Below are positions 46,097 through 52,865 of a stretch of 64,000 nt of DNA, piece after piece. Numbering within the stretch: the stretch's first letter is position 1; each line of letters starts with the position of its first letter. The stretch is from positions 2,770,001-2,834,000 of the forward strand of contig NZ_PEEX01000001.1 in NCBI RefSeq assembly GCF_002754245.1, given 5' to 3'. Source of the stretch: Chryseobacterium sp. 52 (GTDB lineage: Bacteria > Bacteroidota > Bacteroidia > Flavobacteriales > Weeksellaceae). The notes under the pieces are model-generated. The model had not been told where the DNA came from, ran no database searches, and was given only the letters and a program-made list of their open reading frames with translations. Made by a program: the position numbers and the translations under genes.

Positions 46097-47941
46097 TTAT
46101 AAATTGTTTTCGATTGCGCTTACCTTTTCTCTGTAAAGTTCTAAAGGCTTGTCAAGCAGTATGGCAACGACAGTCATATTTTTGTCAAGCTTTTCTTTTG
46201 GAACATCAATGTATACAATTCCCGGGGTATCACTCCAGTAAAGTTTATTGTATACTTTATGACTGATAATAGACCCTTCACCTACAATACGGATTCTTGC
46301 AATTCCATTTTTTATTCCTTTCAATGCTACAGGACCGGTAGGAATTCCTTCTACAAAAAGATAAACCGTCTGTCTGTCTTTGGAAAGTGCACTCATCCCC
46401 GCGTAATGTCCTTCAGGTAAACCTTTTCCTGTATCATAAAGTGCTTCGGCATGTTTGCTGATCCATTGCAGAGTTTCAGGGTTTGTTTTTGATGTGTGTT
46501 GAATCTTTATTTCCTGTCCATCATCTGTAAGTCCTGAATGATAGAAAAGCGCATTGCCATTATGCATATTCTCTGCAATATCATACGCTGCCATTTTAGG
46601 GCTTTTATTTTCAAGGATTTCAGTAAGAGCAGAGGAGTCTTTGTCAGAATTTTTAAGCAAAACAGGAGGTTCTTTGAATGTCATCTTTACCGTAGTAACA
46701 TCCTGGTCGAATTTCACATCAGACAGATCAATGGTCATTGTATTGTTTTGATTAAAACTGAAATTCAATTGGCTGTTTTCTTCACCTACAATTTTCACAG
46801 CATCCGGTTTGCTGGCGAGACCGTAAATCTTTACAAAATCTTTTTGCTCTTCCAGATAAAGAAATATTGATTGTTTTGTTTCTGAAACAGACGATTTTCC
46901 TTTGTAGTTTTCAAATGGTATTCCATGAGAAGTACCATAAATAGCTTCTTTGTTTTTTGATGTCCATCTTCCCAGATTTTTTAAGACTTGAATTTGTTTT
47001 TCAGGAATTGTCCCGTCGGCTTTAGGTCCGATATTAAGAAGAAGGTTTCCTCCCATGCTGATGACGTCTGTCAGCGTTCTGACCATCATATTGGGCGTTT
47101 TATAATGATCATCATAAGGTTGGTATCCCCAGGAATTATTCATGGTATAGCAAAGTTCCCAATATTCATTCTGTGGTCTTACAACAGGAATTCCCTGCTC
47201 AGGAGTGTCATAGTCACCGTGGTCATTAAGTCTTGAATTGATGATGATATCCGGGTTTTTCTTTTTGAGAATACTTAAAGTCTGTGGAGCATTCCATTCT
47301 GCTGAACTGTGTTCCCAATCGCCGTCAAACCACAAAAGATCCGGATTGTATTGTGAGGAAAGTTCACTTAGCTGGGCTTGATAATAATGAACGAATTGTT
47401 GCCATCGTTTCGGATCATTTTTAATCTCATACCGTTTTTTTGTGCGGGTATTGATATCGTAATAAGGGTGGCTCCAGTCAGGAAGAGAAAAATAGAGTCC
47501 GGTTTTAAGGCCTGATTTTTTCAGACTGTTGATGAAAGGAGTCAGAACATCCTTTTTAGCCAGAGAATGAGCGGGAATCGTGATTGCTTTTTCTGCTTTT
47601 GAATTCCATAGTGAAATACCGTCATGATGTTTAGTGGTAATTACTGCGTATTGGGCGCCGGATTCTTTGATAAGTTTAGCCCATTCGTCTGGTTTATATT
47701 GTGAAGCTGAAAACCCATCCAGTTGCTTCATATAATTTTCATGATTGATGTAGTTGTTGAAGAAGGACCATGATTCAGAGATTCCATCTACAGAATAAAT
47801 TCCCCAGTGAATGAAAATACCTAGTTTGGCATTTTTAAACCATTCCATTTTTCTATTGTCTAAAGGCTTTGTCTGAGCATTAATGCTGTATGATGAAACT
47901 GCTAATCCTAAGAAAAAGGCTTTAAAAAACCTGTTTTTCAT
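46097..47941 (-). CDS. Alpha-L-fucosidase (GH29), exported
   Basis: 614 aa with signal peptide (MKNRFFKAFFLGLAVSSYSINAQ). GH29 barrel: WFKNAKLGIFIHWGIYSVDG, GAQYAVITTKHHDGISLW, and the nucleophile region DLLWFDGDWEHSSAEW. A C-terminal beta region follows (~450-614) that is longer than in minimal fucosidases and may be a carbohydrate-binding or accessory fold. It releases alpha-L-fucose from glycans in the periplasm or outside. Single gene. Confidence 0.92.
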   Translation of the reverse strand: MKNRFFKAFFLGLAVSSYSINAQTKPLDNRKMEWFKNAKLGIFIHWGIYSVDGISESWSFFNNYINHENYMKQLDGFSASQYKPDEWAKLIKESGAQYAVITTKHHDGISLWNSKAEKAITIPAHSLAKKDVLTPFINSLKKSGLKTGLYFSLPDWSHPYYDINTRTKKRYEIKNDPKRWQQFVHYYQAQLSELSSQYNPDLLWFDGDWEHSSAEWNAPQTLSILKKKNPDIIINSRLNDHGDYDTPEQGIPVVRPQNEYWELCYTMNNSWGYQPYDDHYKTPNMMVRTLTDVISMGGNLLLNIGPKADGTIPEKQIQVLKNLGRWTSKNKEAIYGTSHGIPFENYKGKSSVSETKQSIFLYLEEQKDFVKIYGLASKPDAVKIVGEENSQLNFSFNQNNTMTIDLSDVKFDQDVTTVKMTFKEPPVLLKNSDKDSSALTEILENKSPKMAAYDIAENMHNGNALFYHSGLTDDGQEIKIQHTSKTNPETLQWISKHAEALYDTGKGLPEGHYAGMSALSKDRQTVYLFVEGIPTGPVALKGIKNGIARIRIVGEGSIISHKVYNKLYWSDTPGIVYIDVPKEKLDKNMTVVAILLDKPLELYREKVSAIENNL

Positions 47942-48133
47942 TTTCTTTTTTAATTTAATGTTAAATATAAATAAAGAAGATCTATTTTTTTGAGATAGTC
48001 ATCCTTAATCTGGCTTTTATATTAAAAAAAATAACGCTGATCTTTAAAATTCAAAATATTCTAACGTAAAATATTGTATTTTTAACATAATCATAAATGG
48101 AATACTTATTGTAAGTTTCATTAAAAATAGAAT

Positions 48134-48355
48134 ATGAAAATTCCAGCATTAGTAATGGCCAGTTTAATGGCTGTAAGTGTATCTGCACAAACAACGAAAC
48201 CTGTGAAAAAGGTGAATAAACCGGTAAGTAAAATAAAAAAGGCGGAATCTCCGAAGCCAATAAAAACAGCAGAAACAAAGCATGTTCCAAATGTTTCAAA
48301 GAAAGATTCTGTTCTTAAGTACGGTGGAGGCTGTCCAGCCTGCGGGATGGGGTAA
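48134..48355 (+). CDS. Exported 73-aa peptide ending in CPACGMG; probable MNIO substrate
   Basis: Residues 1-19 are a Sec signal (MKIPALVMASLMAVSVSAQ). Residues 20-60 are Lys/Pro/Thr-rich and likely unstructured. The end GGGCPACGMG carries the only two cysteines (67 and 70). It is followed 3 nt later by a DUF692/MNIO enzyme, and this pairing is the known layout of RiPP and bufferin-type systems in which the iron enzyme modifies cysteines of a small peptide. The extreme C-terminal position of the Cys motif suggests it is the modified core. Product unknown; no leader-cleaving or partner (DUF2063) gene is adjacent. Confidence 0.8.
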   Translation: MKIPALVMASLMAVSVSAQTTKPVKKVNKPVSKIKKAESPKPIKTAETKHVPNVSKKDSVLKYGGGCPACGMG

Positions 48356-48358
48356 TTT

Positions 48359-49453
48359 ATGAAAAAGCCGTTATTGGGTTTATCAATGATGCCGGAAGCA
48401 GACTTTGTTTCCGCAATACTTCCCATTTTGCAAAATAATGCTGTGGAGGTATTGGAATGGTCTTTTGATACCTTTTATGATTTGGAAGAACCGGAATGGC
48501 TTTCCGGGCTTCTTGACTTTTATGCAGAAAACAACAGGCTTTTGGGGCATGGTGTTTACTATTCTCTTTTTGATGCCAGATGGACTGTAAGGCAGGATGA
48601 ATGGTTAAAGAAATTAAAAAAAGAAGTCAACCAAAGAAAATACAATCATATTACCGAACATTTCGGTTTTATGAATACTGAAAATTTTCATCAGGGAGTT
48701 CCGTTGCCGGTTCCGCTCGTTTCCAAAACCCTGCAAATTGGAAAAGACAGACTCAGGAGGCTTCAGGATGCTGTGGAAATACCTGTTGGTGTAGAAAATC
48801 TTGCTTTTTCGTTTTCTGTAGATGATGTGAAGGAGCAGGGTGAGTTTCTGAACAGGCTTGTAGAAGATATTGACGGTTTTCTTATCCTGGATCTCCATAA
48901 TATCTATTGTCAGTCCTGTAATTTTGAGATAGATATGCAGGAAATTATCAGATGGTATCCCTTGGAAAAGGTAAAAGAGATTCATTTGTCAGGCGGAAGC
49001 TGGCAGGAGAGCGCTTATGGTAAAAAGCCTGTAAGAAGAGATACCCATGATGACCGGATTCCTGAGGAAATATTGAATATACTTCCGGGAGTTTTATCCC
49101 AGTGTCATCATCTTGAATATACTATTATTGAAAGGCTGGGGCATACATTAAAGACAGAGGAAGAAAAGCAGACTTTCCTGGATGATTTTAAACAGGTTAA
49201 AGAAATTATTGAAACTTCGGAATGTTTTACTGGAGAGGAAAAGAAATGGAATAAAACGGAAGAAGTATATTCAGAGCCTGTGGAAGATCACTTGTTGTAT
49301 GATGAGCAGACGAAACTGACAAAGCTTCTGTTTGACAGCAATGGAGTAGCGTCTGTTAAAGAGCAGGAGTTTCATTATTTCAAACCGGAAAACTGGGATG
49401 AGGAAATGATCACTACAGCACAGCAGATCATCAGAAAATGGAATCCTTACTAG
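48359..49453 (+). CDS. DUF692 / multinuclear non-heme iron oxidase (MNIO) with extra C-terminal domain
   Basis: 364 aa. Metal-ligand motifs of the TIM-barrel MNIO family are present: TEHFGF (E100-H101), VENL (E146-N147), DLHN (D178-N181), IHLSGG (H209), DTHDDRIP (D228-H230) and E259. MNIOs such as MbnB and TglH use two or three irons and O2 to remodel peptide cysteines. The core ends near residue 290; ~75 residues follow (charged, ending in IIRKWNPY) and may bind the peptide in place of a separate partner. Start 3 nt after the peptide gene. No signal peptide, so modification would take place before export. Confidence 0.88.
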   Translation: MKKPLLGLSMMPEADFVSAILPILQNNAVEVLEWSFDTFYDLEEPEWLSGLLDFYAENNRLLGHGVYYSLFDARWTVRQDEWLKKLKKEVNQRKYNHITEHFGFMNTENFHQGVPLPVPLVSKTLQIGKDRLRRLQDAVEIPVGVENLAFSFSVDDVKEQGEFLNRLVEDIDGFLILDLHNIYCQSCNFEIDMQEIIRWYPLEKVKEIHLSGGSWQESAYGKKPVRRDTHDDRIPEEILNILPGVLSQCHHLEYTIIERLGHTLKTEEEKQTFLDDFKQVKEIIETSECFTGEEKKWNKTEEVYSEPVEDHLLYDEQTKLTKLLFDSNGVASVKEQEFHYFKPENWDEEMITTAQQIIRKWNPY

Positions 49454-49484: not shown

Positions 49485-49982
49485 ATGAAAATGACAACGG
49501 TATTTTTACTCATTACTGCCGTGCTTACGGCTTTGATCGCCGGGCTTTTCTATGCCTACTCGTGCTCTGTTGTTCTGGGACTGGGAAAACTTTCGGATTC
49601 GGAATATCTGAAAGCTATGCAGAGTATTAACCGCGAGATCCTTAATCCTGTATTTTTTATGAGTTTTATGGGGACTGCAATACTGCTTCCTGTGACTACT
49701 TTCTTATTTCGGGGAGAGCAGCCTGTTTTTCTTTTTCTTCTGTTGGCATCTGCAGCTTATCTGATAGGGGTGTTCGGGGTAACAGTAGCCGGGAATGTAC
49801 CTTTGAATGACATGCTGGACAAGTTTGACATTAATGGGGCAACGATAGAAGGAATTAAGCAAATGCGAGAACGTTTTGAAGACAGATGGAATCTTCTGAA
49901 TAATATCAGGACTGTATTTTCTGTTGTCAGTATCGGTTTGGTAGTCTGTGCATGTATTTGGAGCAGGGAGATGACACGTTAA
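49485..49982 (+). CDS. DUF1772-family membrane protein
   Basis: 165 aa with four hydrophobic segments (~5-27, ~55-75, ~80-105, ~138-158) and the family pattern NVPLNDMLDKFDINGAT…RFEDRWNLLNNIRTVFSVVSI. DUF1772 is related to anthrone-oxygenase-like proteins, function mostly unknown. It begins 31 nt after the MNIO gene and may be in the same transcript, but its link to the peptide system is uncertain. Confidence 0.8.
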   Translation: MKMTTVFLLITAVLTALIAGLFYAYSCSVVLGLGKLSDSEYLKAMQSINREILNPVFFMSFMGTAILLPVTTFLFRGEQPVFLFLLLASAAYLIGVFGVTVAGNVPLNDMLDKFDINGATIEGIKQMRERFEDRWNLLNNIRTVFSVVSIGLVVCACIWSREMTR

Positions 49983-50299: not shown

Positions 50300-50929
50300 A
50301 TGAAACGTTTAGAAAATTTTTTCGGATTGAGATCATTATCTCTAAAAAGCTTATGTCTGTTACTAACTCTATTTGCTGTGTTTTCTATAGCAAGCTGCAG
50401 TAAAGACGATGATGAGCCAGTGCCAACGCCAATCGTATATGCGGTAGAAAACCCATTAGATAAATACCATGAAAATGCGGGATTTACAGCAACTACCAAC
50501 TTTATAAATGCCGGTGATTATGAATTCGGACTGGCATTTTCTCCTAATGTGAAAGGAAGAATAAGTGCAATCAATGTAAAATTACCTGAGGTTAATGCAA
50601 ATTTAAAAGTAACCATCTGGGATTATACCACCAAAGAAATAGTAAGAACGGAGATTGTGAATGTCTCATCTTCAAATACAATGATCAGTAAAAATATCGC
50701 TGAAATTATGTTGGAAAAGGATAGAAAATATCTGATAACAATGAATTCAAATGACTGGTACAAGAAAAATAAACCGGATAATACAAATACCGTATATCCT
50801 ATTACAGCCGGAAATATCAAATTTTTAGAGTATAGATGGGGAGGCGGTGCCACTCAGGTATACCCTGCCAATGTTTCTTTGAATTATAATGGGGGAGATC
50901 TGAGTTTCAATTTTCAACAAATGGACTAA
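50300..50929 (+). CDS. Lipoprotein of unknown function with a DUF4082-like beta domain
   Basis: 209 aa. Lipobox SIASCSKDDDEP follows an N-terminal hydrophobic segment at ~18-33; the SCSKDDD end is the flavobacterial surface-lipoprotein type. The rest (~60-205) is a beta-sandwich-like pattern: YEFGLAFSPNVKGRISAINVKLPE…KVTIWDYTTKEIVRTEIVNV, which resembles DUF4082, though I am not certain. Terminator at 50971. Confidence 0.75.
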   Translation: MKRLENFFGLRSLSLKSLCLLLTLFAVFSIASCSKDDDEPVPTPIVYAVENPLDKYHENAGFTATTNFINAGDYEFGLAFSPNVKGRISAINVKLPEVNANLKVTIWDYTTKEIVRTEIVNVSSSNTMISKNIAEIMLEKDRKYLITMNSNDWYKKNKPDNTNTVYPITAGNIKFLEYRWGGGATQVYPANVSLNYNGGDLSFNFQQMD

Positions 50930-51018: not shown

Positions 51019-51669
51019 TTAGATTTTTAAAAGCTCAATTGTTCTTTCCGGGCTTTCTGCAGAGAAAACTGCATTTCCGGCAACAAGAACATCTGCTCCT
51101 GCTTCGAATAATTTGGAAGCATTTTCAAGGTTAACGCCACCGTCAATTTCAATCAAGGCTGTTGAGTTATTGCTTAAGATAAGATCTTTCGTCTCGGCAA
51201 TCTTTTTGTAGGTGTTTTCAATGAACTTTTGTCCCCCGAATCCTGGGTTTACACTCATTAAAAGGACAAGATCTACATCAGCAATAATATCTTCAAGCAT
51301 CAGCACCGGAGTGGAAGGATTCAGAACAACACCCGCTTTTGCGCCTCTGCTTTGGATATGATGAATGGTTCTGTGAAGATGGGTACACGCTTCATAATGT
51401 ATAGAAATCAGATCTGCACCATGATTGATGAATTCATCCACATACTTGTCAGGTTCTACGATCATCAGGTGAACGTCTACAAATTTCTTAGCATGTTGCT
51501 GTACGGTTTTCATGACAGGAAAGCCAAATGAAATGTTGGGTACAAATCTCCCATCCATCACATCGATATGAAGCCAGTCTGCCTGGGAGTTGTTCAGCAT
51601 TTCAATGTCTCTTTGCAGATTCCCAAAGTCTGCGGATAAAAGGGAAGGAGCAATAAGCTTCGTTTTCAT
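51019..51669 (-). CDS. rpe: Ribulose-phosphate 3-epimerase
   Basis: 216 aa TIM barrel: IAPSLLSADFGNL, DWLHIDVMDGRFVPNISFG, VDVHLMIVEP, LLMSVNPGFGGQKFI and ALIEIDGGVN, all with the metal and catalytic residues. Interconverts ribulose-5-P and xylulose-5-P. An inverted-repeat region separates it from the M42 peptidase. Confidence 0.97.
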   Translation of the reverse strand: MKTKLIAPSLLSADFGNLQRDIEMLNNSQADWLHIDVMDGRFVPNISFGFPVMKTVQQHAKKFVDVHLMIVEPDKYVDEFINHGADLISIHYEACTHLHRTIHHIQSRGAKAGVVLNPSTPVLMLEDIIADVDLVLLMSVNPGFGGQKFIENTYKKIAETKDLILSNNSTALIEIDGGVNLENASKLFEAGADVLVAGNAVFSAESPERTIELLKI

Positions 51670-51791: not shown

Positions 51792-52865
51792 TTAATGATA
51801 CTTCAGTTTCATCTCCGGTTTGATCTTCAGAAGTGTCTCGTAGATCAGTTTGATTACGTTACCTACGTCTTCTTTAGAAACCATTTCTACCGTTGTATGC
51901 ATGTAGCGCAAAGGTAGGGAAATTAATGCACTCGGTACGCCGCCATTGGAGTGGGCGAATGCATCAGTGTCTGTTCCTGTAGCTCTGCTTGCTGCAGCTC
52001 TTTGATAAGGGATTTTTTTAGTTTTTGCAGTGTCTATGATCAGTTCTCTGATTGTATGATGAATGCTTGGAGCAAAGAAAACTACAGGTCCGTCACCACA
52101 TTTCTGATCACCCTCTTTCTTCTTTTCAATCATTGGAGTTGTGGTGTCATGGGTAACATCTGTTACAATGGCGATATTGGGTTTGATGGTGTCAGCAATC
52201 ATATCGGCACCATATAAACCTACTTCTTCCTGTACAGAATTCGTGATATACAACCCGAAAGGAATTGTTTTTTTATTTTCTTTTAAAAGTCTTGCTACTT
52301 CCGCGATCATAAAGCCTCCGATTCTGTTATCTAATGCTCTGCAGACAAAATATCGGTCATTCATTTCAAAGAATTCATCCGGGTAGGTGATCATGCATCC
52401 TACATAAATTCCCATTTCCTCAACTTCTTTCTTTGAAATAGCCCCGCAGTCGATGAATATATTCTCAATTTTCGGAGTAGGTTCATTCTGATTGGTTCTG
52501 GTATGAATGGCTGGCCATCCGAATACCCCTTTTACAATTCCGTTTTCACCATGAATATGAACAACTTTTGAAGGAGCAATAGTCTGATCTGAACCTCCGT
52601 TTCTGATTACATAAATCAATCCGTCATCCGTGATGTAATTAACGTACCATGAGATTTCATCAGCATGAGCTTCAATCACTACTTTAAATTCCGCCTCCGG
52701 ATTAATTATGCCATAGCAGGTTCCATAATGATCTACTTCTATTTTGTCTACGTAAGGTCTGATGTAGTCCATCCAGATCTCCTGTCCCTTGTGTTCGTAA
52801 CCTGTTGGAGAAGAGATGTTTAAATATTTCTCTAAAAATTTCAAAGATTTCTTTTCAAATTTCAT
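51792..52865 (-). CDS. M42-family metallo-aminopeptidase
   Basis: 357 aa from MKFEKKSLKFLEKYLNISSPTGYE; a 49-codon upstream extension overlaps the divergent gene and is dropped. Di-metal ligands: VIEAHADEISWYV (H-x-D), DDRYFV…RALDNRIGG (Asp bridge), QEEVGLYGAD (Glu pair) and VTDVTHDTTTP, SRATGTDTDAFAHSNGG. Deblocking or glutamyl aminopeptidase activity is typical, cytoplasmic. Divergent from the DUF4294 gene. Confidence 0.92.
   Translation of the reverse strand: MKFEKKSLKFLEKYLNISSPTGYEHKGQEIWMDYIRPYVDKIEVDHYGTCYGIINPEAEFKVVIEAHADEISWYVNYITDDGLIYVIRNGGSDQTIAPSKVVHIHGENGIVKGVFGWPAIHTRTNQNEPTPKIENIFIDCGAISKKEVEEMGIYVGCMITYPDEFFEMNDRYFVCRALDNRIGGFMIAEVARLLKENKKTIPFGLYITNSVQEEVGLYGADMIADTIKPNIAIVTDVTHDTTTPMIEKKKEGDQKCGDGPVVFFAPSIHHTIRELIIDTAKTKKIPYQRAAASRATGTDTDAFAHSNGGVPSALISLPLRYMHTTVEMVSKEDVGNVIKLIYETLLKIKPEMKLKYH

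Follow-up and report, generated by a model that had tools for sequence, protein, structure and literature searches.

Genome comparison suggests that chrAH is separable from chrI, rpe and an M42 peptidase gene in the chryseobasin locus of Chryseobacterium sp. 52

The window analyzed here is a stretch of 64,000 nucleotides from contig NZ_PEEX01000001.1 of Chryseobacterium sp. 52 (positions 2,770,001 to 2,834,000). It harbors an ordinary copy of the published chryseobasin gene cluster, which is already known. The features of the locus are the following, with positions counted from the first letter of the window.

48098..48114, + strand: TGGAATACTTATTGTAA, a conserved promoter-like element about 20 nt before chrA that looks like a sigma-54 -24/-12 site
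48134..48355, + strand: chrA, chryseobasin precursor peptide, 73 aa (NCBIfam NF050124, 106 bits, cut-off 50)
48134..48187, + strand: putative Sec signal, ChrA residues 1-18, with a probable signal peptidase I cut after VSA (read by eye)
48332..48352, + strand: CPACGMG tail, ChrA residues 67-73, the substrate motif (exact tail in 68 of 75 chrA genes of the genus)
48359..49453, + strand: chrH, MNIO chryseobasin maturase, 364 aa (NCBIfam NF050165, 703.5 bits, cut-off 600, residues 3-364)
48509..49141, + strand: MNIO barrel domain, ChrH residues 51-261 (PF05114, 114.3 bits)
49157..49450, + strand: C-terminal helical region of ChrH, residues 267-364 (AlphaFold2 model)
49485..49982, + strand: chrI, DUF1772-type membrane protein, 165 aa (NF050162, 319.5 bits, cut-off 275; PF08592)
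51019..51669, - strand: rpe ('ChrE' of the 2023 paper; PF00834), probably outside the pathway
51792..52865, - strand: M42 peptidase gene ('ChrP' of the 2023 paper; PF05343), probably outside the pathway; the start is an internal ATG picked by resemblance to relatives

ChrA, ChrH and ChrI each score above the curated NCBIfam cut-off of their chryseobasin family. In the Pfam scan PF05114 (MbnB_TglH_ChrH) matched ChrH and PF08592 matched ChrI, and ChrA was without any Pfam family. A sequence-only reading had described two open reading frames 3 nt apart, the first encoding a 73-residue peptide whose only two cysteines lie in a terminal CPACGMG, and both descriptions were borne out. Its statement that no partner gene is adjacent was wrong, as chrI starts 31 nt after chrH. 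An alpha-L-fucosidase-like gene (46097-47941, - strand) adjoins the cluster; it was matched in 57 of 74 chrH loci, in 6 of the 21 loci that lack chrH and in all 11 of the further chrI-only loci. A putative lipoprotein gene (50300-50929, + strand) lies between chrI and rpe and is present in 15 of 74 chrH loci; NCBIfam and Pfam scans gave no family above cut-off for its product.

The N-terminus of ChrA is a hydrophobic stretch which, judged by eye, ends in VSA|Q, and a type I Sec signal (SPI) is reported for ChrA from SignalP in passages of a 2025 preprint (PMC12636315). The whole peptide contains 14 lysine and arginine residues and three aspartate and glutamate residues. Among 75 loci of the genus (74 fetched loci and the window), 73 have an intact reading frame with a C-x-x-C-G tail: 68 end in CPACGMG (window included), two in CVACGMG, two in CPACGLG and one in CPACGKG. 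The two altered chrA genes belong to loci L137 and L146 (genomes G068 and G077). The chrA of L137 has an in-frame stop inside the linker, and in that of L146 the tail reads CPAYGMG, its second cysteine replaced by tyrosine; chrH adjoins in both. Each of the 74 other loci has a chrA-like gene immediately upstream of chrH, these two altered copies counted, and 56 of the 73 parsed loci have a gap of 3 nt between the genes. This gene order, together with the 106 bits to NF050124, shows that the peptide reading frame is not a chance one. The ChrA of locus L145, encoded beside the ChrH labelled JM1, is likely the experimentally studied orthologue, since its length of 69 aa, its cysteines at positions 63 and 66, its four methionines and its 11-residue LysC tail fit the published peptide (PMC10214503). 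Window ChrA is identical to it in 50 of 69 aligned residues.

Window ChrH is 81% identical to the protein labelled Chryseobacterium sp. JM1 ChrH. It contains the MNIO residues E100-H101, E146-N147, D178, N181, H209, D228 and H230 listed by the sequence-only reading, plus H64, H180 and E258, and all twelve are invariant in an alignment of 53 sequences. An AlphaFold2 model built from 53 sequences (mean pLDDT 88.6, pTM 0.89) consists of a barrel followed by C-terminal helices at residues 267-286, 311-326, 330-334 and 348-361. In a Foldseek search with this model, TglH (8hi7, E 1.9e-14), MbnB (7dz9, E 3.9e-12) and a DUF692 structure ranked first. The model gains nothing over the published one. The extra C-terminal residues pointed out earlier are real, yet they are not unusual: passages of the 2025 preprint report a C-terminal helical bundle across the whole ChrH family (PMC12636315). 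A novel C-terminal domain was thus rejected, the best Foldseek matches of the whole model being MNIO barrels.

The chemistry of the orthologous system is in print. According to the passages cited here from Ayikpoe et al. 2023, the CPACGMG tail is closed by ChrH to a macrocycle that contains a hydantoin and an S-methyl group, and the reaction uses SAM (PMC10214503). The modified orthologue product is 10 Da heavier; it contains an S-methyl thioaminal that is unreactive to NEM, and no thiooxazole or oxazolone. The product, SAM as the methyl donor and iron in the enzyme were established experimentally, and the O2 steps are a proposed mechanism (PMC10214503). For the relative DybH, a C-terminal CPACGMG is described as sufficient for recognition in the text of the 2025 preprint (PMC12636315). 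The earlier expectation that an MNIO rebuilds cysteines in a peptide bound for export was right.

Orthology, co-occurrence and gene order are established for the window locus, and by orthology the window copy would carry out the same reaction. ChrA would be made with its Sec signal and CPACGMG tail. ChrH, a multi-iron MNIO with C-terminal helices, would act in the cytoplasm, where it would carry out a four-electron oxidation of the second tail cysteine; the macrocycle would be closed by the first tail cysteine, the backbone would become a hydantoin (imidazolidinedione) and the thiol would be methylated from SAM. The modified ChrA would then be exported through Sec and cut by signal peptidase I, and the cut at VSA|Q, a predicted site, would leave about 55 residues, a lysine-rich peptide whose tail is capped. 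Modification probably precedes export, because ChrH lacks a signal as judged by eye and the tail lies at the end of ChrA opposite the Sec signal. Taken as a whole, the locus is almost certainly a chryseobasin locus, with the published tail chemistry as its predicted reaction, probably ahead of Sec export. Compared with the published ChrA-ChrH-ChrI cluster (Ayikpoe et al. 2023, PMC10214503), it shows the same three-gene order, the CPACGMG tail and the nearby rpe and M42 genes; as far as the cited passages allow a comparison, only sequence divergence sets it apart, window ChrA having 73 aa versus 69 aa in L145.

The sequence-only reading had suggested metal binding in the periplasm as a possible role. 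On this view the modified tail would chelate a periplasmic metal such as copper, as in the bufferin, oxazolin and methanobactin systems. These share the enzyme superfamily with ChrH, and the window peptide is likewise exported and has two cysteines; moreover, 6 of 148 genomes of the genus have, at other loci, oxazolin-like clusters whose precursors contain GKCG repeats. However, ChrH scores far below the cut-offs of the respective models (BufB 95.5 bits, cut-off 310; HvfB 84.3, cut-off 360; MbnB 24.7, cut-off 325), and the locus has neither an EGKCG precursor nor a BufC-type partner, the partner being ChrI. No copper family was found by Pfam among seven scanned proteins of the cluster and its neighbors, and the published product, in the passages cited, is the NEM-unreactive one without thiooxazole or oxazolone (PMC10214503). 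Metal binding was rejected as the best account and is highly improbable, leaving that part of the reading unsupported. TglH and MbnB share the barrel fold with ChrH and have other partner proteins and products; the C-terminal helical domain is reported as absent from both in the cited part of the preprint (PMC12636315). A second, unrelated MNIO system was seen in at least six of the 148 genus genomes (L117-L122; G003, G009, G108, G023, G030 and G132), the count covering genomes that weakly match the ChrH model. It comprises a GKCG/EGKCG-repeat precursor, an MNIO of 276-279 aa, and BufC/HvfC-like and DoxX-like proteins, which were named by eye; in G009 this cluster sits between rpe and the M42 gene.

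Closer to the window system are the Dyb/Chs/Hym-type RiPPs (Chen et al. 2025 preprint, PMC12636315), which, in the cited passages, likewise have a CPxCGxG tail and a ChrH-type MNIO with C-terminal helices. Their precursors are reported to have a lipobox cysteine and to yield a -4 Da product without methylation (PMC12636315), whereas the window peptide is without a third cysteine. No ChrI match was found in 80 fetched Dyb-type loci within the reach of about 1.5 kb on each side. The 53-sequence alignment was composed of 24 rows from the ChrH search (the window and 23 others, a few of them metagenome proteins), taken as methylating, and 29 Dyb/Chs/Hym-type rows from a second search, taken as non-methylating and 38-43% identical to window ChrH; all rows were hand-picked from 240 listed proteins. 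Between the groups, 19 positions differ while being conserved within each (>=95% and >=85%). Among them are M10-M11 versus C-N, N106-T107 versus T-G and R259, beside E258, versus Q, as well as W297, F341 and N362 in the C-terminal region. As candidate methylation determinants these positions are a lead only, confounded by ancestry and with the product assumed from the clade. A ChrH-type enzyme was also observed at locus L171 (G319), where no obvious CPxCGxG precursor was present among reading frames of >=60 aa in the 4-kb locus.

Of 148 genomes of the genus, 75 have a ChrH and 76 a ChrA that passes the respective cut-off. All 75 genomes with ChrH also have ChrA over cut-off, one chrA having the in-frame stop and one lacking the second tail cysteine, so the co-conservation of peptide and enzyme on which the sequence-only reading had staked itself was found. 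The additional ChrA genome, G063, is 75% complete with frame-broken genes and was kept out of the 75 and out of the 21 chrH-lacking loci described below. Its chr region (L123, G063:C1:336000-346500) is frame-broken including the M42 and fucosidase genes, which probably reflects sequencing errors and not decay. All 25 over-cut-off ChrH hits in 197 genomes of the family, and all three in 395 genomes of the phylum, belong to the genus of the window, with the NF050165 cut-off being strict and the published ChrH subfamily wider. The chryseobasin trait is dispensable, since two of the 75 chrA genes are naturally altered and 73 of the 148 genomes are without over-cut-off ChrH.

ChrI, which shows hydrophobic segments by Kyte-Doolittle analysis and owes its DUF1772 name here to the 2023 paper (PMC10214503), has been described in two conflicting ways. 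It was needed in the co-expression of the 2023 paper, as passages of it state (PMC10214503), which would make it an obligatory subunit of ChrH; its presence over cut-off in 67 of the 75 chrH genomes (the copy of G070 carries an internal stop) agrees with this. Contrary to that paper, ChrH modified ChrA in E. coli to the +10 Da product without ChrI according to the cited part of the 2025 preprint (PMC12636315), and another 2025 paper notes, citing a review, that ChrI was reported as dispensable (PMC12452194). The description of the window system as self-contained thus fits the preprint and disagrees with the 2023 paper. Genome comparison also speaks against an obligatory subunit. Eight of the 75 chrH genomes (G035, G075, G090, G091, G103, G105, G106 and G115) are without ChrI at cut-off, the absence in G090 being uncertain as its locus ends at a contig edge. 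ChrI is also over cut-off in 14 genomes without ChrH (81 of 148 in total, with the same division when counted by locus), and chrI occupies one and the same site in all 14, namely in 3 of the 21 chrH-lacking loci and in each of 11 further ones. There it is kept with few amino-acid changes: the median pN/pS is 0.21 (91 pairs) versus 0.16 in full clusters (2145 pairs), rough ratios of uncorrected proportions at a median pS near 0.7. In a rough tree of ndk, rpe and M42 sequences (100 loci), the chrI-only genomes are spread across several branches and the five placeable chrI-lacking chrH genomes stand in four places, a pattern as repeated loss or gain would give. It is therefore unlikely that ChrI is an obligatory subunit. 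In L083, the locus of G070, the stop lies at about residue 70 of chrI beside chrA and chrH, which is a further sign that chrI can be lost.

The 2023 paper also counts ChrE and ChrP to the cluster: after the action of ChrHI, the ChrP protease would free the tail and the ChrE epimerase would tailor it, and the final structure of chryseobasin is said, in the passages cited, to await reconstitution with both (PMC10214503). Besides having been proposed by its authors, this five-gene pathway agrees with the neighborhood of the genes, as 71 of the 74 chrH loci fetched have rpe and the M42 gene downstream on the other strand. L157, a contig edge, departs from this, and so do the chrAH loci L095 and L155, in which neither gene was found within 5 kb downstream. 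Both genes are convergent with the cluster, and in the window genome rpe is the only PF00834 match and the M42 gene the only PF05343 match of the Pfam search. Furthermore, all 21 sampled loci from chrH-lacking genomes retain the order ndk - rpe - M42, and the M42 proteins of these genomes are 93-97% identical to that of the window. This sample is non-random: 22 of the 73 genomes without over-cut-off ChrH were taken, namely the first 18 listed without a match (the less complete G021 and G039 were passed over) and G003, G009, G108 and G063, the last then being set aside. In one of the chrH-lacking loci, L097, another MNIO cluster lies between rpe and the M42 gene. Given the opposite strand, the sole copies detected by Pfam and the place kept without chrH, ChrE and ChrP are probably housekeeping bystanders and not pathway members, and a pathway of five genes is quite improbable. 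The bystander view was not met in the published passages surveyed.

Of 74 relatives, 69 have the block TGG-N8-TTG at 19-27 nt upstream of chrA. Beyond these search letters, the rest of TGGAA...TT.TTG.AA agrees in 68 or 69 of the 69, and two of the five loci missing the block have CGG for TGG. The block was absent within 250 nt before chrI in the chrI-only loci (0 of 14), and was present within 150 nt before only 1 of 79 Dyb-type precursors, for which the longest reading frame was taken as precursor in 79 of 80 loci, so that some upstream stretches may be misplaced. The block has the spacing of sigma-54 promoters, in whose consensus TGG-N8-TTG[CT] the distance between the two parts is fixed. 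The window genome also encodes an rpoN domain. A looser sigma-54 pattern was not enriched genome-wide (20 matches versus 27 in a reversed control), and none of the other 19 matches lies within 50 nt of the start of a reading frame of >=90 aa, the nearest being 53 nt away (L203). Within the window, a search allowing up to three mismatches gave one match, the chrA site with none, versus a mean of 0.55 in shuffled sequence. As this match alone is not beyond chance, the case for the element rests on its conservation, and its resemblance to the consensus makes it a candidate sigma-54-like promoter.

The value of the locus as a discovery is low, as motif, enzyme, partner and chemistry are in print, yet it has some bearing on what chryseobasin is. 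What is new, on a small scale, is that genome comparison sets chrAH apart from chrI, chrE and chrP, along with the conserved upstream element. The real unit may be chrA-chrH only, situated mostly at a fixed site between ndk and rpe and equipped with a dedicated, conserved sigma-54-like promoter, with ChrE and ChrP as bystanders and ChrI as a separable membrane protein with a role of its own; we hold this combined reading tentatively, at a little less than an even chance. If the two-gene reading is true, the mature product would be the entire basic peptide left after signal cleavage, capped tail included, and not a small excised compound. The gene order argues that a ChrE/ChrP step may not exist, and the exported, signal-cleaved peptide is worth seeking directly. 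The conserved upstream element offers a handle on when the peptide is made.
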